This document shows, piece by piece, positions 4,003 through 60,238 of a stretch of DNA of 64,000 bases. The translations under genes and the position numbers were made by a program. The notes under the pieces are model-generated. The model searched no databases. It was not told the DNA's origin and was given only the letters and a program-made list of their open reading frames with translations. The DNA comes from Massilia sp. CF038 (lineage in GTDB: Bacteria; Pseudomonadota; Gammaproteobacteria; Burkholderiales; Burkholderiaceae_D). The DNA is taken from positions 434,001 through 498,000 of the forward strand of contig NZ_FQWU01000001.1 in assembly GCF_900129765.1 (NCBI RefSeq). Direction: 5' to 3'. Position 1 is the first letter of the stretch; the number at the start of each line of letters is the position of its first letter.

Positions 4003-6699
4003 ATGTCAGCTCAACTCGACCAGTTGACGGCCCAGGCCGCCAATGATCCCGATACGCTCGAAACCAAGGAATGGCTCGAAGCGCTCGAGGCCGTCATTGA
4101 AAACGAGGGCCCGGAACGCGCCCACTATCTGATGGAACGACTGGTCGATCTGGCACGCCGCCGCGGCGCCCACATCCCGTTTTCCAGCAACACCGCTTAC
4201 GTCAATACCATCCCCGCCCACCTCGAAGAACACTGCCCCGGCAACCTGGAGTACGAAGAGCGCCTGCGCTCGTGGATGCGCTGGAACGCCATGGCCATGG
4301 TGGTCAAGGCCAACCGCGCCGACGGCGACCTGGGTGGCCACATTTCCAGCTTCGCCTCGCTGGCGAACATGCTGGGCATTGGCTTTAACCACTTCTGGCG
4401 CGCCCCGTCGGCCGAACATGGCGGCGATCTGCTGTACATCCAGGGTCACTCCTCGCCCGGCATCTACGCGCGCGCCTTCCTGGAAGGGCGCCTGTCCGAA
4501 GACCAGTTGCTGAACTTCCGCCGCGAAGTCGACGGCAAGGGCCTGTCCTCGTACCCGCACCCGAAACTGATGCCGACCTTCTGGCAGTTCCCGACCGTGT
4601 CGATGGGTCTGGGTCCGCTGATGGCGATCTATCAGGCGCGCTTCCTGAAATACCTGCATGCACGCTCGATTGCCGACACCGAAAACCGCAAGGTCTGGGT
4701 CTTCTGCGGCGACGGCGAAATGGACGAGCCGGAATCGATGGGCGCGATTGGCATGGCTGCGCGCGAACGCCTCGACAACCTGGTCATGGTCGTCAACTGC
4801 AACCTGCAGCGCCTGGACGGTCCGGTGCGCGGCAACGGCAAGATCATCCAGGAACTGGAAGCGGACTTCCGCGGCGCCGGCTGGAACGTGGTCAAGGTGA
4901 TCTGGGGCCCGGGCTGGGATACCTTGCTGGCCAAGGACAAGGAAGGCATTCTGCAGCGCGTGATGATGGAAACCGTCGACGGCGAATACCAGAACTACAA
5001 GGCCAAGGACGGCGCCTACGTGCGCAAGCATTTCTTCGGCAAGCATCCGAAGCTGCTGGAAATGGTCGCCAACATGACCGACGACGATATCTGGCGCCTG
5101 ACCCGCGGCGGCCATGACCCGCACAAGATTTACGCCGCCTTCAAGATTGCGCAGGAAAACAAGGGCACGCCAACGGTTCTGCTGGTGAAAACCGTCAAGG
5201 GCTTCGGCATGGGCAAATCGGGCGAAGCGCGCAATACTGCGCACCAGACCAAGAAGCTCGACGACGAAGCCATCCGCGAAATGCGCGACCGCTTCGGTAT
5301 TCCGATCCCGGACGACAAGCTGGCCGAGATCCCCTTCTTCAAACCGGCCGACGATGCGCCCGAAATGGTGTACCTGCACAAACGCCGCGAAGCGCTGGGC
5401 GGCTACCTGCCGCAGCGCCGTCCGCAGGCAGCCGAAACGCTGCCGGTGCCTGCACTGTCGGCCTTCCAGAACGTGCTGGACGCCACCGCTGAAGGACGCG
5501 AAATTTCGACCACGCAGTCGTTCGTGCGCATCATTTCGACCCTGCTGCGCGACCCGAACCTGGGCCAGCGCATCGTCCCGATCCTGGTGGATGAATCGCG
5601 TACCTTCGGTATGGAAGGCTTGTTCCGCCAGATCGGCATCTTCAACCAGCAAGGGCAGTTGTATGAGCCGGTCGACAAGGACCAGGTCATGTACTACCGC
5701 GAAGACAAGGCTGGCCAGATTCTGCAAGAAGGTATCAACGAAGCCGGCGGCATGAGCTCGTGGATCGCTGCGGCGACTTCGTACTCGACCAACAACCGGA
5801 TCATGATCCCGTTCTACACCTTCTACTCGATGTTTGGCATGCAGCGCATTGGCGACTTGGCCTGGGCGGCCGGCGACATGCGCGCACGCGGCTTCCTGAT
5901 GGGCGGCACCGCAGGGCGTACCACGCTGAACGGCGAAGGCTTGCAGCACGAAGATGGCCACAGCCACGTGATGGCAGCGACCATTCCGAACTGCCTGCCG
6001 TACGATCCGACCTTCGCGCATGAAGTGGCGGTGATCGTGCAGGACGGTTTGCGCCGCATGGTGGCGGAGCAGGAAGACGTGTTCTACTACATCACGCTGA
6101 TGAACGAGAACTACGAGATGCCTGGCCTGAAGCCTGGCACCGAAGCGGGCATCCTGAAGGGCATGTACCTGCTCCAGGAAGGCAAGCAGGATGCCAAGCA
6201 GCGCGTGCAGCTGATCGGTTCCGGCACCATTTTGCGTGAGTCGATCTTTGCGGCCGAGCTGCTGGAAAAAGACTTTGGCATCGCTGCCGATGTGTGGTCG
6301 GCACCGTCGCTGACGCTGATCGCGCGCGATGGTCAGGACGCCGAGCGCTGGAACATGGTGCACCCGACCGACACCCCGCGCCTGCCGTATGTGACGCAGC
6401 TGATGGAAAAGACCTCCGGTCCGATCATTGCCACCACCGACTACATGCGTTTGTTCGCCGAGCAGATCCGCGCGTTCATGCCGAAGGACCGCACCTACAA
6501 GGTGCTGGGTACCGACGGTTTCGGCCGTTCCGACAGCCGCGTCAAGCTCCGCGAGTTCTTTGAAGTGAACCGTCACTACATCGTGGTGGCGACGCTCAAG
6601 GCATTGGCGGATGAAGGCAAGGTCAAGACCAGCGTGGTGGCGGAAGCGATTGCCAAGTATGGCATCGATCCGAACAAGCCGAATCCAGTGACCCAGTAA
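4003..6699 (+). CDS. aceE: Pyruvate dehydrogenase E1 component, homodimeric type
   Basis: The protein has 898 residues (E. coli AceE has 887). It decarboxylates pyruvate with thiamine diphosphate and transfers the acetyl unit to the lipoyl arm of AceF. The ThDP/Mg motif is visible as GDGEMDEPESMG from residue 236 to the NCN at 265-267. The start is fixed by AAGGAG about 7 nt before ATG 4003. It is the first gene of aceE-aceF-lpdA, with a promoter at 3916-3944. A REP-like hairpin separates it from aceF, so the ratio of E1 to E2 mRNA could be tuned there. Confidence 0.98.
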   Translation: MSAQLDQLTAQAANDPDTLETKEWLEALEAVIENEGPERAHYLMERLVDLARRRGAHIPFSSNTAYVNTIPAHLEEHCPGNLEYEERLRSWMRWNAMAMVVKANRADGDLGGHISSFASLANMLGIGFNHFWRAPSAEHGGDLLYIQGHSSPGIYARAFLEGRLSEDQLLNFRREVDGKGLSSYPHPKLMPTFWQFPTVSMGLGPLMAIYQARFLKYLHARSIADTENRKVWVFCGDGEMDEPESMGAIGMAARERLDNLVMVVNCNLQRLDGPVRGNGKIIQELEADFRGAGWNVVKVIWGPGWDTLLAKDKEGILQRVMMETVDGEYQNYKAKDGAYVRKHFFGKHPKLLEMVANMTDDDIWRLTRGGHDPHKIYAAFKIAQENKGTPTVLLVKTVKGFGMGKSGEARNTAHQTKKLDDEAIREMRDRFGIPIPDDKLAEIPFFKPADDAPEMVYLHKRREALGGYLPQRRPQAAETLPVPALSAFQNVLDATAEGREISTTQSFVRIISTLLRDPNLGQRIVPILVDESRTFGMEGLFRQIGIFNQQGQLYEPVDKDQVMYYREDKAGQILQEGINEAGGMSSWIAAATSYSTNNRIMIPFYTFYSMFGMQRIGDLAWAAGDMRARGFLMGGTAGRTTLNGEGLQHEDGHSHVMAATIPNCLPYDPTFAHEVAVIVQDGLRRMVAEQEDVFYYITLMNENYEMPGLKPGTEAGILKGMYLLQEGKQDAKQRVQLIGSGTILRESIFAAELLEKDFGIAADVWSAPSLTLIARDGQDAERWNMVHPTDTPRLPYVTQLMEKTSGPIIATTDYMRLFAEQIRAFMPKDRTYKVLGTDGFGRSDSRVKLREFFEVNRHYIVVATLKALADEGKVKTSVVAEAIAKYGIDPNKPNPVTQ

Positions 6700-6708
6700 A
6701 CACCACCC

Positions 6709-6781
6709 CATCGTCCTCGCGAAGGCGGGGACCCATAGCATCTCAAATGTGCCATGGGCCCCCGCCTGCGCGAGGGCGATG
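6709..6781. repeat. REP-like inverted repeat, copy 2 (inside the pdh operon)
   Basis: Arms 6709-6737 and 6753-6781 are reverse complements apart from about four positions and leave a 15-bp loop. The element fills most of the 108-bp aceE-aceF gap and would form a strong mRNA hairpin ending 27 nt before the aceF start. It is the same family as 3775-3878 and 9993-10077. Confidence 0.85.
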
Positions 6782-6807
6782 CGATAACTAAGAATAATGG
6801 AGCTGCT

Positions 6808-8139
6808 ATGAGCACAGTGGAAGTCAAAGTCCCGGATATCGGCGACTTCAAGGAAGTCGAAGTCATTGAATTGATGGTCAAGGTGGGCGACACCATCAAA
6901 GTCGATCAGTCGCTGGTCACCGTCGAATCCGACAAAGCCAGCATGGAAATCCCGTCGTCCCACGCGGGCGTCGTGAAAGAACTCAAGATCAAGGTCGGTG
7001 ACAAGGTCGCCGAGGGTTCGCTGGTGCTGATTCTGGAGGCGTCCGAAGGCGCCGCCGCGCCAGCGGAAGCAGCGCCCGCACCTGCAGCGGCCGCGCCTGA
7101 CGCTGCAGCGCCAGTCGCCGCCCCGGCGCCGGTCGCAGCCCCTGCACCAGCGCCCGCAGCGGCACCGGCGCCGGCAGCAGCTGCCGCCCCGGCCCCATCG
7201 AACTCGAAAGCCCACGCCTCGCCATCGATCCGCAAGTTCGCCCGTGAACTGGGCGTGGACCTGATGCGCGTGCCTGGCAGCGGCCCGAAAGGCCGCATCA
7301 CCCAGGAAGACGTGCAGAACTTCGTCAAGGGCGTGATGGCCAGCGCTTCGCCAGGTAACGGTTCGGAAGCAGCCAAGGGCGGCTCCGGCGTTGGCCTGGA
7401 TCTGCTGCCCTGGCCGTCGCTCGACTTCAGCAAGTTCGGTCCGACCGAGCTGCTGCCGCTGTCGCGCATCAAGAAGATCAGTGGCCCGAACCTGCACCGT
7501 AACTGGGTAATGATCCCGCACGTGACGCAGTTCGACGAATCCGACGTGACCGATCTGGAGCAGTTCCGCGTGGATTCCAACGCGGCCCTGGCCAAGGCCA
7601 AGTCGACCGTCAAGCTGACCATGCTCGCGTTCGTGATCAAGGCCAGCGTCGCGGCACTGAAAAAATACCCGGCATTCAATGCCTCGATCGATGCCACCGG
7701 CGCCAATCTGATCCTCAAGCAGTACTACAACATCGGCTTTGCAGCCGACACGCCGAACGGTCTGGTGGTCCCGGTCATCAAGGACGCCGACAAGAAGTCG
7801 ATCTCGCAGATCGCCACCGAAATGGGCGAGCTGTCCGGCCAGGCGCGCGAGGGCAAGCTCAGTCCTGCCAACATGCAGGGCGCGACCTTCACCATCTCGT
7901 CGCTGGGCGGCATTGGCGGCACCGCGTTCACGCCGATCATCAACGCACCGGAAGTGGCGATCCTTGGCCTGTCCAAGTCGTCCATGAAGCCGGTGTGGGA
8001 CGGCGCCGCATTCCAGCCGCGCCTGATGCTGCCGCTGTCGCTGTCGTACGACCACCGCGTCATCGATGGCGCCATGGCGGCGCGCTTCACCGCATATCTG
8101 GCAGAAGTCATGTCGGACCTGCGCAAGTCGCTGTTATAA
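6808..8139 (+). CDS. aceF: Pyruvate dehydrogenase E2, dihydrolipoyllysine acetyltransferase
   Basis: The protein has 443 residues and forms the core of the complex, passing acetyl groups to CoA. The order is one lipoyl domain (1-78, lipoylated Lys43 in ESDKAS), an Ala/Pro-rich swinging linker (about 80-132), a peripheral subunit-binding domain (about 135-172, SPSIRKFARELGVDL) and the catalytic domain with the active-site DHRVIDG (His416). E. coli AceF has three lipoyl domains; a single one is common in other bacteria. GGAG precedes ATG 6808. The lipoyl domain is almost identical to that of the downstream lpdA. Confidence 0.97.
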   Translation: MSTVEVKVPDIGDFKEVEVIELMVKVGDTIKVDQSLVTVESDKASMEIPSSHAGVVKELKIKVGDKVAEGSLVLILEASEGAAAPAEAAPAPAAAAPDAAAPVAAPAPVAAPAPAPAAAPAPAAAAAPAPSNSKAHASPSIRKFARELGVDLMRVPGSGPKGRITQEDVQNFVKGVMASASPGNGSEAAKGGSGVGLDLLPWPSLDFSKFGPTELLPLSRIKKISGPNLHRNWVMIPHVTQFDESDVTDLEQFRVDSNAALAKAKSTVKLTMLAFVIKASVAALKKYPAFNASIDATGANLILKQYYNIGFAADTPNGLVVPVIKDADKKSISQIATEMGELSGQAREGKLSPANMQGATFTISSLGGIGGTAFTPIINAPEVAILGLSKSSMKPVWDGAAFQPRLMLPLSLSYDHRVIDGAMAARFTAYLAEVMSDLRKSLL

Positions 8140-54232: not shown

Positions 54233-54266
54233 CATAAGCAAAGAAGAAAGCATTCGTTCGCTTTCG
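54233..54266 (+). promoter_or_regulatory. Candidate CysB site A (before the RBBP9-type hydrolase)
   Basis: It aligns without gaps to 55560-55593 and 56433-56466: TAAGCAAAGAAG on the left and TTCGTTCGCTTT on the right. Eighteen of 34 positions are identical in all three. It starts 72 bp before the hydrolase ATG. Confidence 0.55.
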
Positions 54267-54304
54267 CCGTGCCCGCCCGTATGCTGTGATCACAGGAGGC
54301 GGGC

Positions 54305-54868
54305 ATGGCCATTCAACTTTTCCCCGATTTTCACGTCATCATCGTGCCTGGACTGCATGACAGCAGCCCGGCGCATTGGCAAAGCCGCTGGCACGCGCGC
54401 CAGCCAGCGTTTTCGCGCGTACGCCAGGACGATTGGGACCACCCCAACCTGGTGACCTGGGCCGCGCGCCTGGGGCAGGTTCGGGCACGCGATCCGCGCC
54501 CGGCCTTGCTGATTGCGCACAGCTTCGGCTGCCTGACTGCCGTGCACAGCATCGCGCGCGACAGTGCCAACGTGGCGGGCGCGCTGCTGGTGGCGCCTGC
54601 CGACCCCGACAAATTTGGCGTGGCCGACATGCTGACGGCGCTGCCGCTGGGCTGCCCATCGCTGGTGGTTGCCAGCAGCAATGACCCCTGGATGCGCGCC
54701 AGCAAAGCGGCCCTGTGGGCGCAGCGCTGGGACAGCGAACTGGTCGAAGCAGGCCCGCTTGGCCACATCAACGCCGACTCCGGCCTGGGCGACTGGGCTG
54801 CCGGCCAGGACCTCTTGCACCGGCTGGCGGAAAAGGCGCACAATGAACGGCTGGCATTTTCGGCATGA
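54305..54868 (+). CDS. RBBP9/YdeN-family serine hydrolase
   Basis: The protein has 187 residues with an alpha/beta hydrolase fold. The nucleophile Ser is in AHSFGCLT, the Asp in SSNDPWM and the His in GHINADSGLGDW, matching the RBBP9 family. The start has AGGAGG at 54295-54300. It lies downstream of a candidate CysB site and 39 bp before the peroxiredoxin. Substrate unknown. Confidence 0.9.
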   Translation: MAIQLFPDFHVIIVPGLHDSSPAHWQSRWHARQPAFSRVRQDDWDHPNLVTWAARLGQVRARDPRPALLIAHSFGCLTAVHSIARDSANVAGALLVAPADPDKFGVADMLTALPLGCPSLVVASSNDPWMRASKAALWAQRWDSELVEAGPLGHINADSGLGDWAAGQDLLHRLAEKAHNERLAFSA

Positions 54869-54907
54869 TTAACAGCCAAACCACTTTTTTATTCCACGGA
54901 GATGACG

Positions 54908-55546
54908 ATGACTTTACGCCTGGGCGATACCGCCCCTGATTTCGAGCAGGATTCCTCGCAAGGCCCGATCAAGTTCCACCAATGGGCGGGTGACTCGTGG
55001 GTCGTGCTGTTTTCGCACCCGGCCGATTTTACGCCCGTGTGCACGACGGAACTGGGACTGACGGCCAAGCTGAAACCGGAGTTCGACAAGCGCAACGTGA
55101 AGGCAATTGCCCTGTCGGTCGACCCGGCTGATACCCACAAAACCTGGATCAGCGACATCGAAGACACGCAAAAGACCGTCGTGGGTTTCCCCATCATTGC
55201 CGACGCTGACAAAAAAGTCGCCACGCTGTACGACATGATCCACCCGGAACAATCGGCCACAGCCACCGTGCGCTCGCTGTTCGTGATCGATCCGAATAAA
55301 AAGATCCGCCTCACCATCACCTATCCGATGAGCACGGGCCGCAATTTCGACGAAGTGTTGCGTGTCATCGACGCCCTGCAACTGACCGACAAGCATACCG
55401 TGGCCACCCCGGGCAACTGGAAAGATGGCGACGATGTCATCATTCCGCTGACCATCCAGGATCCGGAAGTGATCAAGCAAAAGTATCCAAAAGGCTTCAC
55501 GGCAGCGCGTCCTTACCTGCGCCTGACGCCGCAGCCGAACAAGTAA
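54908..55546 (+). CDS. 1-Cys peroxiredoxin (Prx6 type)
   Basis: The protein has 212 residues. The peroxidatic Cys is in PVCTTE (HPADFTPVCTTELG) and the protein has the long C-terminal domain of the Prx6 group, with only one conserved catalytic Cys. It detoxifies peroxides. The start was moved from ATG 54902 to ATG 54908 because GGAG (54898-54901) abuts the first but is 6 nt from the second. Confidence 0.94.
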   Translation: MTLRLGDTAPDFEQDSSQGPIKFHQWAGDSWVVLFSHPADFTPVCTTELGLTAKLKPEFDKRNVKAIALSVDPADTHKTWISDIEDTQKTVVGFPIIADADKKVATLYDMIHPEQSATATVRSLFVIDPNKKIRLTITYPMSTGRNFDEVLRVIDALQLTDKHTVATPGNWKDGDDVIIPLTIQDPEVIKQKYPKGFTAARPYLRLTPQPNK

Positions 55547-55559
55547 AACGCATAGCGCG

Positions 55560-55593
55560 CATAAGCAAATAAGGTTTCTGTTGTTTGCTTTCA
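55560..55593 (+). promoter_or_regulatory. Candidate CysB site B (before tauE)
   Basis: TAAGCAAATAAGG on the left and TTGTTTGCTTT on the right match sites A and C in ungapped alignment. It starts 77 bp before the TauE/SafE start codon. Confidence 0.6.
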
Positions 55594-55636
55594 TGCTGAG
55601 CCCCCTTACGCTGACGCTTACTTTGGGGGCGTCTGC

Positions 55637-56410
55637 ATGCTTTTTACATATATTATTTCCGGGTTCGGGGTCGGACTGCTAGTCGGCATGACCGGCGTGG
55701 GCGGCGGCTCGCTGATGACGCCGCTGCTGACCCTGCTGTTCGGCATCAACCCCTCGGTGGCGGTGGGCACTGACCTCGCGTTCGCCTCCATCACCAAGAC
55801 TGCCGGCACCTTCACTCACCGCCTGCGCGGCACCGTACGCTGGGATATCGTCAAATTGCTGTGCATTGGCGCCCTGCCAGCAGCCGTGGCAACCGCGCTG
55901 GCGCTCAAGCAGTTCGGCGCGCTGGACGCCGGCATCGGGCAAATCATCCGCTATTCGATTGCCGGCTCGGTCCTGCTGACGGTGGTAGCGCTGCTGTTCA
56001 AAGGAAAAATGCTGGCCTGGCTGAATGCCCACCCGGAAAAACATTTGCAGGGACGCAGCCTGAGCGCGGCCACCATCGTTGCCGGCCTGGTGCTGGGCAC
56101 CCTGGTGACTGTCTCTTCGATCGGCGCCGGCGCCATTGGTGCCACCTTGCTGGTCATGCTGTATCCGCGCCTGTCGGCAGCGGAAGTGGCCGGTACCGAC
56201 ATCGCCTACGCGGTACCCCTGACCGCGATTGCCGCCTTCGGCCACTGGTGGCTGGGCTCGATCAACTGGGAATTGCTTGCCATGCTGCTGATCGGCTCGG
56301 TTCCTGGCATCACGCTGGGCTCCTGGATGGCGCGCGCCGTCCCCGAGCGGGTGCTGCGGGCACTGCTGGCGATGACGCTGACGGCGGTCGCTGCCAAACT
56401 GATCTATTGA
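55637..56410 (+). CDS. TauE/SafE-family sulfite/sulfonate exporter-like permease
   Basis: The protein has 257 residues with about eight transmembrane helices. Signatures: GMTGVGGGSLMTPLL near the start and VAGTDIAYAVPLTAIAAFGHW in the second half. The family moves sulfite, sulfoacetate or other organosulfur anions; here it lies upstream of cysTWA. The GGGGG at 55626-55630 is about 7 nt from the ATG. Confidence 0.92.
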   Translation: MLFTYIISGFGVGLLVGMTGVGGGSLMTPLLTLLFGINPSVAVGTDLAFASITKTAGTFTHRLRGTVRWDIVKLLCIGALPAAVATALALKQFGALDAGIGQIIRYSIAGSVLLTVVALLFKGKMLAWLNAHPEKHLQGRSLSAATIVAGLVLGTLVTVSSIGAGAIGATLLVMLYPRLSAAEVAGTDIAYAVPLTAIAAFGHWWLGSINWELLAMLLIGSVPGITLGSWMARAVPERVLRALLAMTLTAVAAKLIY

Positions 56411-56432
56411 CAGCCGCTCATATCATTTCTCG

Positions 56433-56466
56433 TCTAACCAAATAAGAAATAGTTCGTTTTCTTTAT
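56433..56466 (+). promoter_or_regulatory. Candidate CysB site C (before cysT)
   Basis: TAACCAAATAAGAAA on the left and TTCGTTTTCTTTAT on the right match sites A and B. It starts 89 bp before cysT and is the most likely genuine CysB target, since sulfate-uptake operons are classic CysB targets and cysB itself is downstream. Confidence 0.65.
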
Positions 56467-56521
56467 GAGTTCAGGGTGAGATTATGCGACCTCTTAGATA
56501 AAAATGTAATAAGAGGGCTGC

Positions 56522-57367
56522 ATGTCTCCGAAACCACCCCCGCAGCGCGCGCCATACCGGGTTATGCCCGGCTTTGGCCTGTCGCTGGGGTTCACGATTT
56601 TCTATCTGGCGCTGATCGTCCTGATCCCGCTGTCCGCCGTGTTCCTGAAGACCTTCACCATGACCTGGGAAGCTTTCTGGAGCGCCGTGACGTCGGAACG
56701 CGTGATGGCCTCGTACCGGCTCAGCTTTGGGGCATCGCTGATTGCCGCGACCATCAACGTGTTTTTTGGCGGCATCGTCGCGTGGGTGCTGGTGCGCTAT
56801 AAATTTCCGGGCAAACGCCTGATTGACGCCTTGGTCGACTTGCCCTTTGCCCTGCCTACGGCTGTGGCGGGCATCACGCTGACCGCCTTGTATTCAAGTA
56901 ACGGCTGGATCGGCCAGTACCTGGAAAAATTCGGCTGGAAAGTCGCGTTCACGCCGGTGGGCGTGGTGGTGGCGCTGACTTTCATTGGCTTGCCCTTCGT
57001 GGTGCGCACGGTGCAGCCTGTGCTGGAAGACGCCGAACGCGAACTGGAAGAAGCGGCAGCCAGCCTGGGCGCCAATTCCTTACAGACCTTTGTGCGCATC
57101 ATCTTCCCATCGATCATGCCGGCCATGCTGACCGGCTTTGCGCTGGCGTTTGCGCGTGCCACAGGCGAATACGGTTCGGTCATTTTCATCGCCGGCAACA
57201 TGCCGATGGTGTCGGAGATCACGCCCCTGTTCATTATCACCAAGCTGGAGCAGTACGACTACGCCGGTGCGACCGCAATTGCCGTGGTCATGCTGATCGC
57301 GTCCTTCTTGTTGCTGTTGACGATTAACTTGCTGCAGGCCTGGACCCGCAAACGGTCAGGTAAATGA
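56522..57367 (+). CDS. cysT: Sulfate/thiosulfate ABC transporter permease CysT (CysU)
   Basis: The protein has 281 residues, six transmembrane helices. The EAA-type loop [15 protein letters not shown] and the family motif [14 protein letters not shown] are present. It forms the channel with CysW. AGAGGG precedes the ATG. It overlaps the next gene. Confidence 0.95.
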
Positions 57368-58239
57368 TGAGCGCACAATTCAAAAAATCCGGCGCGGTGC
57401 TGGAGCCGGCCTGGGTTCGCATCGTTCTCGTCACCATCGCACTGGCGTTTCTGACGCTGTTCCTGTTCGTGCCGCTGGTGGCCGTGTTTGCCGAAGCATT
57501 CAAGAAGGGCTGGCAAGCATACGTGGCCGCGATTGTCGATCCGGACGCCATCTCCGCCATCAAGCTGACGCTGATTGCGGCCGGCATTTCGGTGCCATTG
57601 AACCTGGTGTTCGGGGTCAGCGCGGCCTGGGCGGTGGCCAAGTTCGAGTTCCGCGGCAAGAGCATTCTGCTGACCCTGATCGACTTGCCGTTTTCGGTCT
57701 CGCCTGTGATCTCCGGCCTGATCTACGTGCTCATGTTCGGCGCCCAGGGCTGGTTTGGTCCCTGGCTGCAGGCGCATGACATCAAGATCCTGTTTGCCGT
57801 GCCGGGCATTGTGCTGGCCACCGTCTTCATCACCTTCCCGTTTGTGGCGCGCGAACTGATCCCGCTGATGCAATCGCAGGGCAATGAAGAGGAAGAGGCG
57901 GCGCTGGTGCTGGGCGCCTCGGGCTGGGATACCTTCCGCCGCGTGACGCTGCCGAACATCAAGTGGGGCCTGCTGTACGGCGTCATTCTGTGTAATGCGC
58001 GTGCCATGGGCGAATTTGGCGCGGTGTCGGTGGTGTCGGGCCATATCCGCGGCGAGACCAATACCATGCCGCTCCAGGTCGAAATCCTCTACAACGAATA
58101 CAACTTTGCGGCGGCGTTTGCGGTTGCCTCGCTGCTGGCGCTGCTGGCCCTGGTGACACTGGCCATCAAATCATTTGTCGAATGGCGTTTGCACACGGTT
58201 GATCCGGTCGAAGCCGAAGCACGAGCAATGGAGCACTAA
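57364..58239 (+). CDS. cysW: Sulfate/thiosulfate ABC transporter permease CysW
   Basis: The protein has 291 residues. It starts at ATG 57364 overlapping the cysT stop (57367 is a second ATG). The EAA loop [16 protein letters not shown] and [17 protein letters not shown] are typical of CysW. The cysA start is 2 bp after the stop. Confidence 0.95.
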
Positions 58240-58241
58240 TC

Positions 58242-59315
58242 ATGACAATCGAAGTCAAGAACATCAACAAACGATTCGGCGATTTCGTCGCGCTCGATAA
58301 TGTGTCGCTCCAGTTCCCCACGGGTGAACTGACCGCGCTGCTGGGGCCTTCAGGCTGCGGCAAGACCACGCTGCTGCGCATCATCGCGGGCCTTGAGCAT
58401 CCGGATTCCGGCCAGGTGCTGCTGGACGCGAACGATGCATCGGCCCGTCACGTGCGCGAACGCCAGGTGGGCTTCGTGTTCCAGCACTATGCGCTGTTCA
58501 AACACATGACCGTGTTCGAGAACGTCGCCTTCGGCCTGCGCGTCAAGCCACGCAAGGAGCGTCCGTCAGAACTGGAAATCAAGCAGAAGGTGCACGACCT
58601 GCTTGGCCTGGTGCAGCTGGACTGGCTGGCTGACCGCTATCCGCCGCAGCTGTCGGGTGGACAGCGCCAGCGTATCGCCCTGGCGCGCGCCCTGGCGGTG
58701 GAGCCGCGCGTGCTGCTGCTGGACGAACCGTTTGGTGCGCTCGACGCCAAGGTGCGCAAGGAACTGCGGCGCTGGCTGCGCCGCCTGCACGACGACCTGC
58801 ACGTCACCTCCATCTTCGTGACCCACGACCAGGAAGAAGCGCTGGAAGTGGCCGACCAGGTGGTCCTGATGAACAAGGGGAAGGTCGAGCAGCTGGGCGC
58901 GCCCGGCGACGTGTACAACAATCCCGCCTCGCCGTTCGTGTACGGCTTCCTGGGGAACGTGAACCTGTTCCACGGCCGCGTGCACGAAGGGGTGCTGGCC
59001 AGCGGCGACGCCAGCTTCACCGTGCCTGATCACGCGCAGGTCCAGGATGGCAAAGGCATCGCGTATGTGCGCCCGCACGACCTGGATATTGACCGCTATG
59101 TCGCCGGCGGCGAGGGCATCGTCGTCAAGCTGCGCCGCGCACATGCGATTGGCCCGCTGGCCCAGCTCGACCTGGAACGCGCCGACAATGCGGAGCTGAT
59201 CGAAGCGGTCATTCCGAATGAGCGCTTTAGCCAGTTGCAGGTACGCGAAGGCGACACGCTGCTGGTGCGCCCGCGCCGGATGCACGTGTTTGTCGACCAG
59301 GGTGCAGCGATATGA
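58242..59315 (+). CDS. cysA: Sulfate/thiosulfate ABC transporter ATPase CysA
   Basis: The protein has 357 residues. Walker A is [12 protein letters not shown], the signature [15 protein letters not shown], Walker [20 protein letters not shown], followed by a C-terminal TOBE-like domain ([11 protein letters not shown]). ATP drives sulfate or thiosulfate import. It overlaps cysB by 4 bp (ATGA). The periplasmic binding protein is not in the window. Confidence 0.96.
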
Positions 59316-60238
59316 ACTTCCAACAATTGCGCTCGATTCGCGAAACGGCGCGCCGCGGCTATAACCTGACCGAAGTGGCCAATGCCTTATTCACCTCGCA
59401 GCCAGGCGTGAGCCGCCAGATCCGCGAACTGGAAGATGAACTGGGTGTGGTCATCTTCGAACGCAATGGCAAGCGCCTGACGGGCCTGACCGAGCCAGGC
59501 AAGGGCATCCTCAAGATCATCGACAAGCTGCTGGTGGAAGCGGAAAACCTGCAGCAGGCCAGCCAGGATTACGCGGGCCAGAACAGCGGCACGCTGACCA
59601 TTGCCGCGACCCACACGCAGGCGCGCTATGCGCTGCCCAAGGTGGTGCAATCGTTCCGCGCCGATTTTCCCGATGTGCGCATCGCCCTGCAGCAAAGCGC
59701 GCCAGATCACATTGCGGAGTGGGTCCTGTCGGGCAAGGCCGATATTGGCATTGCGACCGAGGGCTTGTCGCAGTTCCCGGATCTGGTGTCCTTCCCCTGC
59801 TATCGCTGGAGCCACCTGGTGGTGGTGCCGGACGGGCACGCGCTGCTCGGCAAGTCGCCGATCAAGCTGGAAGATCTGGCGGACTTCCCTTTGATTACTT
59901 ATGACGTGGGCTTTACGGGGCGCGGCCATATTGATGCGGCGTTTGCGGCGGCAGGGGTGAAGACCGATATTGTGCTGACCGCGATGGATTCGGACGTCAT
60001 CAAGCAGTATGTGTCGCTGGGACTGGGCGTGGGGATTGTGGCGTCGATGGCGTTTGATCATGGGCGCGACAAGGGTTTGCGCGCGATTGAAGCGTCACAC
60101 CTGTTTGCGCCGAACGTGACGCGGCTGGCTGTGCGGCGTGGGGCTTATCTGCGCGAGTATGCGTATCGCTTCATTTCGCAGTTTGCGCCGGAGCTGAAAC
60201 GGGCAGAAATTGAAGCTGCCGTAAACGCAGAAGGATAG
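59312..60238 (+). CDS. cysB: CysB-type LysR regulator of sulfur assimilation
   Basis: The protein has 308 residues. The start [20 protein letters not shown] (in part) and the HTH region [23 protein letters not shown] match CysB/Cbl. The effector domain has [13 protein letters not shown] and the Thr/Gly-rich N-acetylserine-type pocket [11 protein letters not shown]. The operon order cysTWA-cysB and the three similar sites upstream suggest it controls this region, with O-acetylserine/N-acetylserine as likely inducer by analogy. Cbl is the alternative. Confidence 0.93.

Follow-up and report, generated by a model that had tools for sequence, protein, structure and literature searches.

In a 64,000-nucleotide stretch of Massilia sp. 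CF038 (contig NZ_FQWU01000001.1, positions 434,001 to 498,000; hereafter the window), three ungapped 34-bp sites precede, respectively, a serine hydrolase gene that is followed by a peroxiredoxin gene, a TauE/SafE-family permease gene (tauE), and a cysT-cysW-cysA-LysR cluster (cysTWA-LysR). We proposed that these sites are operator boxes of a sulfur regulon governed by CysB/SsuR-family regulators in the Massilia-type Oxalobacteraceae, and that control of the hydrolase came by descent; taken as a whole, this explanation, which is built on sequence comparison, has in our estimate a probability of about 0.77. Site A (54233..54266, + strand) stands before the hydrolase and probably derives from an ancestral sbp promoter, site B (55560..55593, +) stands before tauE, and site C (56433..56466, +) stands before cysT; they begin 72, 77, and 89 bp, respectively, ahead of the start codons. 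Eighteen of the 34 positions are identical across the three sites, and the pairwise comparisons share 24, 23, and 21. The coordinates and counts given in a preliminary description of this DNA were thereby reproduced, and the genes that it had placed behind the sites agreed with those identified by Pfam and TIGR models.

When 34-mers taken from the three intergenic regions were compared without gaps, the best triple had 20 of 34 positions in common, compared with a maximum of 12 in 200 dinucleotide shuffles. In the 5.66-Mb genome, the pattern TAANCAAANAAG-N7-TNGTTNNCTTT was matched exactly at sites A, B, and C only; no match with one or two mismatches was found, and two places matched with three mismatches versus one for the reversed control. 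Within the window, three matches with up to three mismatches were observed versus 0.03 expected. Because the pattern was built from the three sites themselves, independent support has to come from conservation in relatives. With up to two mismatches allowed, a family-wide scan gave matches in 42 of 116 genomes, compared with 21 of 116 for the reversed control; the pattern was thus too loose, and we turned to matrices derived from relatives. The idea that the three sites arose when one promoter was duplicated locally, in a single recent event, was set aside because each box was kept at its own gene across genera and the upstream flanks were not.

The first matrix (42 positions) was built from the 31 tauE and cysT sites that best fitted the pattern of the preliminary description, in loci of 20 relatives, with the genome under study excluded and two loci of other families left out. 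On the window, this tauE/cysT matrix gave 51.9 bits at site C, 42.9 at site B, and 33.5 at site A, with the next best place at 13.2; the genome expectation at 33.5 bits or more was 6e-4 (first-order background from the window), and the maximum on 3433 random segments was 14.2 bits. A whole-genome search with this matrix as a model (R1) returned six matches: site C (E 1.5e-7), site B (3.3e-7), site A (5.9e-4), a sulfite-reductase promoter (0.017), and two weak partial matches at L098:1496-1537 (G000:C6) and G000:C2:2023117-2023137 (E 0.67 and 0.84). We then scored the upstream regions in 80 named loci around the hydrolase, which were the best 80 of 457, so that the sample is biased toward close kin. 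Scores of at least 17 bits were obtained upstream of sbp in 42 of 52 cases, tauE in 30 of 30, and cysT in 62 of 62, and upstream of DAGK in 0 of 63, cysW in 0 of 61, cysA in 0 of 58, LysR in 1 of 55, and the peroxiredoxin in 0 of 59. Nine of the 80 loci overlapped the training set of the matrix, and in L167 the cluster genes matched in pieces; after removal of these ten loci, the box was still found before tauE in 21 of 21 loci and before cysT in 52 of 52. Column conservation was 0.79-0.85 in the sites (which were chosen by score), 0.45-0.54 in the 40 bp upstream, and 0.62-0.69 in the 25 bp downstream. Thus, the box is conserved across species before sulfur genes and absent upstream of DAGK, cysW, and cysA. 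The preliminary description had made its proposal depend on conservation of the motif upstream of the cys genes of relatives, and the boxes indeed recurred before cysT, tauE, and sbp. As to L167 (Massilia sp. H-1), the broken matches suggest frameshifts or assembly errors. Box-like sequences of 21.1 bits each were also seen in another family of the order (L218:2397-2438 and L219:2388-2429), adjoining a LysR gene of the CysB side with a divergent cysI.

The hydrolase (54305..54868, +) is of the RBBP9/DUF1234 type (PF06821, Pfam E 9.8e-51; PDB relative 3bdv, DUF1234), and its AHSFGCL motif, Asp127, and His154 were invariant in an alignment of nine rows, two of which are the same gene. Its genomic company was that of sulfur supply: sbp directly preceded the hydrolase in 52 of the 80 loci, and sbp or cysT/W/A lay within the fetched stretch in 75, two of the other five being contig ends (L116, L159). 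The order sbp-ssuEADCB-EAL protein-hydrolase was found in other Oxalobacteraceae (L163, L161), and sbp-hydrolase-cysTWA-LysR in two further families (L082, L083). The EAL-domain protein (PF00563), at L161:5599-6471 and L163:5611-6501, separates the hydrolase from the ssu genes. In the window genome, both sbp genes are located away from the cluster. A second matrix was built from 45 sbp promoters. Of the 28 loci in which no sbp lies within 400 bp, it was tested on the 13 that are hydrolase-first or unlinked. In every one of these 13, its top match fell 64-211 bp upstream of the hydrolase match (scores 12.8-54.4), and its top match in the window was site A, at 27.1 bits. In most Massilia-type loci, moreover, the likeness to sbp promoters continued through the -10 element (GTATTCTGG and similar). 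On the strength of these matches and of the likeness through the -10 element, we proposed that the promoter before the hydrolase in this genus is probably a former sbp promoter that was left in place after sbp was lost; the sulfur control of the hydrolase therefore looks inherited, the gene having been a member of an sbp-hydrolase unit. Two genomes of the same genus (L051, L052) carry a second hydrolase copy, 39-44% identical, flanked by sbp and by a CysB-family member that falls with genes of other families.

Beyond the three sites, a box of 34.2 bits was found in this genome between a LysR paralogue of the CysB side and a divergent gene of the nitrite/sulfite-reductase family that heads a cysHDN operon. 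No NCBIfam model exceeded its cut-off for the reductase gene, and the downstream cysH, cysD, and cysN passed theirs; we read the reductase gene as cysI. A weaker box of 26.0 bits preceded ssuE-ssuA-ssuD-ssuC-ssuB (SsuE, A, D, and C passed their models, and ssuB was below the cut-off), and the two sbp promoters of the genome scored 21.8 and 18.3 bits with the tauE/cysT matrix. The ssu and sbp promoters were scored within fetched stretches only; per 200-bp upstream region, 3e-5 to 8e-4 such scores are expected by chance, and these boxes are suggestive by position only. The sbp, cysI, and ssuD promoters are reportedly targets of CysB or SsuR in Burkholderia cenocepacia. At L239:7850-7891, a weak box (7.2 bits) was seen on the opposite strand beside a divergent SfnB/DszC-like gene (6602-7957; models below their cut-offs) that adjoins the ssu operon.

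The question of which regulator binds the boxes was addressed through the LysR gene that closes the cysTWA cluster (59312..60238, +) and that had previously been called cysB. At E 1e-20, the genome holds two CysB-family genes, this one and its 54% identical paralogue beside the sulfite reductase. Over the aligned parts, the window LysR is 54% identical to E. coli Cbl and 46% to E. coli CysB; it passed PRK12684 (461.2 bits, cut-off 402) and remained below the cut-offs of the CysB model (381.1 vs 436) and the Cbl model (375.4 vs 491). Phylogenetic trees were calculated after 12 of 65 rows (repeats and near-copies) had been dropped before the first and 7 more before the second. The 53-row tree placed each of the 13 cysTWA-linked rows on one side, together with E. 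coli Cbl (support 95/92), and the paralogue on the other, together with E. coli CysB; two cysI-linked rows from another family (L190, L191) lay on the cysTWA side. When these two were among the seven rows removed, the split received 99/98. A constraint that joined E. coli CysB to the rows linked to cysTWA and those linked to hydrolase/sbp was rejected with a p-AU of 3e-36, for a group that was defined after the first tree. The window LysR thus did not form a group with E. coli CysB that left out Cbl and the cysTWA-linked LysRs in these trees, in which the E. coli branches are long and the named references are E. coli CysB and Cbl, with no named Burkholderia protein among the rows. As the last gene of a cysTWA cluster in a genome with a separate CysB paralogue, the window LysR matches the SsuR-type arrangement, and the gene at this position is named ssuR in the passage on B. 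cenocepacia that we cite (PMC7970998). Given the tree placement and this synteny, ssuR-like is the better name for the window gene, and the linked regulator is probably not a CysB orthologue. The proposal of a candidate CysB regulon thus held as regards conserved sulfur-regulon boxes, but probably not as regards the identity of the linked gene. That CysB alone binds the boxes, as then proposed, would accord with the membership of the linked gene in the CysB family and with the boxes that adjoin the paralogue of the CysB side, at the promoter of the sulfite reductase here and at that of tauE in L012-L016; we considered it improbable, however, since the linked gene groups with the cysTWA-linked LysRs and Cbl and since its synteny fits ssuR. 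Because the boxes adjoin genes of both CysB-family branches, they may be bound by SsuR, by CysB, or by the two together, and the controllers are likely an SsuR/CysB pair rather than CysB alone.

The positions of the boxes relative to putative promoter elements were analyzed in 144 sites. In 81 of them, the best -10-like hexamer began 26 bases downstream of the first T in the core TNGTT, and the next most frequent offset, 39, was found in 19. At this offset of 26, the candidate -10 elements are TATGCT for promoter A (54280..54285, +), TACGCT for promoter B (55607..55612, +), and GATTAT for promoter C (56480..56485, +), so that the right arm of each box would occupy the place of the -35 element. 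A consensus promoter scan found none on the + strand at A-C; its sole match, on the - strand (56481-56510), was as frequent in shuffles. A box that abuts or overlaps the -35 position where no consensus promoter is recognized would fit an activator. Published SsuR sites are said to be about 44 bp long and to overlap the -35 element.

The peroxiredoxin gene (54902..55546, +) starts 33 bp downstream of the hydrolase and encodes a 1-Cys protein of the Prx6/LsfA type, with the domains PF00578 and PF10417, the motif PVCTTE in its translation, and Prx6 proteins as its PDB relatives. No terminator-like site was found on the + strand of the gap, and given the short distance, the peroxiredoxin is likely transcribed by read-through from site A. 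Its induction by sulfur starvation is therefore predicted. In sulfur-starved Pseudomonas aeruginosa, lsfA was reported to be up-regulated more than 45-fold (PMC12581299), and LsfA is described as named for its induction at low sulfate (PMC4199769). Sulfur control of redox and hydrolase functions had been regarded as outside the standard regulon: for the 1-Cys peroxiredoxin, such induction is already known from Pseudomonas, and the regulon membership of the hydrolase is the newer part, though apparently inherited. In one relative without the hydrolase, a box of 31.5 bits stands before the peroxiredoxin (L089:4113-4154).

Several results weighed against the proposed regulon and its inherited control of the hydrolase. 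Over the whole genome, the counts expected by chance were 0.04 at the ssu score of 26.0 and 0.3 and 1.6 at the sbp scores of 21.8 and 18.3, so that the sbp scores do not exceed what chance gives genome-wide; the ssu promoter and both sbp promoters were absent from the six matches of the whole-genome model search, and the tauD upstream region had no box (-2.9 bits). The unlinked place at L098 reached 22.4 bits upon rescanning with the matrix. Inverted symmetry of the three sites was not above chance compared with shuffles (p 0.16, 0.16, and 0.38). Where the peroxiredoxin is not behind the hydrolase, it had its own box in only one of seven loci (L089). The 15 loci remaining of the 28 without nearby sbp had no box before the hydrolase by the tauE/cysT matrix (best 4.2), as would be expected if the hydrolase lies inside an operon there. 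Among the hydrolase-first loci, 4 of 12 reached 17 bits with the same matrix and 8 did not (L179 is an sbp/ssu-type locus), which we ascribed to sbp-type boxes being a subclass of their own. Finally, for 10 upstream regions of E. coli cys, tau, ssu, and sbp genes, the best score was 1.8 bits, compared with 9.0 for the best of 19 controls; given this failure, the tie of the boxes to the CysB/SsuR family rests on gene context. In the same rescans, the second weak match, on C2, scored below 10 bits; the L098 match sits just outside a long opposite-strand open frame that reads, by eye, like a glutamine synthetase.

The low scores in those eight hydrolase-first loci, together with the location of both sbp genes of this genome elsewhere, could be taken to mean that site A is a decaying relic of an sbp promoter and that the hydrolase no longer responds to sulfur. 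This appeared unlikely to us, because site A scores 33.5 bits here and retains the -10 offset and because an sbp-type promoter was the top match before the hydrolase in all 13 tested loci. That the boxes are sites of an unrelated regulator, or plain promoter elements conserved for RNA polymerase, has in its favor their abutment on -35/-10 elements and the lack of a match at E. coli promoters, but is very improbable in view of 34-42 bp conserved before sulfur genes, seen in none of 63 DAGK regions or 3433 random segments, and of boxes adjoining genes of both CysB-family branches.

We therefore kept to sulfur-regulon boxes with inherited control of the hydrolase, for which the following scheme may be envisaged. 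Under sulfur limitation, the boxes would be bound by SsuR, whose gene closes the cysTWA operon, by its paralogue CysB, encoded next to the sulfite reductase, or by the two together, and the bound regulator would recruit RNA polymerase and switch on hydrolase-peroxiredoxin, tauE, and cysTWA-ssuR, the last of these providing positive feedback on ssuR. In the family, the genes commonly run sbp-hydrolase-(peroxiredoxin)-cysTWA-LysR, with an sbp promoter in front; once sbp had been lost here, that promoter would have come to stand, box included, immediately upstream of the hydrolase, from which the peroxiredoxin would be read through. Desulfonation of sulfonates by SsuD would yield sulfite and flavin-derived peroxide, to be handled by TauE and the peroxiredoxin, and the hydrolase may serve to release sulfur-bearing esters or thioesters. 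The remaining genes of the cluster are the TauE/SafE-family permease (55637..56410, +; PF01925, E 9.1e-43), cysT (56522..57367, +; TIGR02139, 426.5 bits, cut-off 246.1), cysW (57364..58239, +; TIGR02140, 421.7 bits, cut-off 329.1), and cysA (58242..59315, +; TIGR00968, 395.6 bits, cut-off 342.75). In relatives, the block DAGK-hydrolase-peroxiredoxin-tauE-cysTWA-LysR is kept, with the hydrolase or tauE missing in some.

The association of the hydrolase with sulfur supply is the new lead from this analysis. Among the matches listed in a literature search, no titles or abstract openings linked RBBP9/DUF1234 proteins to sulfur starvation, which is no proof of absence. We tentatively suggest, while regarding it as somewhat doubtful, that the PF06821 hydrolase of Burkholderiales belongs to the SsuR/CysB regulon as an unrecognized sulfur-scavenging enzyme, kept together with sbp, ssuEADCB, or cysTWA, with a promoter inherited from sbp and a sulfur-bearing ester or thioester as its substrate. 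A serine-hydrolase family of unknown bacterial role would thus be tied to sulfur supply, and the search for its substrate can be aimed. The analysis also supplies a defined sulfur-regulator box with which the regulon can be predicted in the genomes of a large environmental family, and the link of sulfur starvation to a 1-Cys peroxiredoxin, known but so far without explanation, becomes testable at the promoter level. In addition, the results suggest that a gene may stay under its old regulation by acquiring the promoter of a neighbor that has been lost.

Among the closest known systems is the SsuR/CysB regulon of B. cenocepacia (sbp-cysTWA-ssuR), with which the cluster shares the gene order around the LysR gene as given in the cited passage (PMC7970998); the presence of two CysB-family paralogues is likewise common to both. 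That passage names five genes, none of them a hydrolase, peroxiredoxin, or TauE gene, whereas the window cluster holds all three. With E. coli CysB and Cbl, the window regulator has the LysR family in common, but the window box scores nothing at the E. coli cys, tau, ssu, and sbp genes. The peroxiredoxin is of the Prx6 type, as is LsfA of Pseudomonas; in Pseudomonas, its up-regulation is accompanied by that of a cluster for an organic-sulfur ABC transporter, whereas the window peroxiredoxin follows the hydrolase beside cysTWA. The passages cited on LsfA (PMC12581299, PMC4199769) name no regulator for lsfA. Finally, the hydrolase shares both its family and its catalytic motif with the RBBP9-type hydrolases (PF06821/DUF1234; PDB 3bdv), from which the window type is distinguished by being embedded in sulfur clusters.

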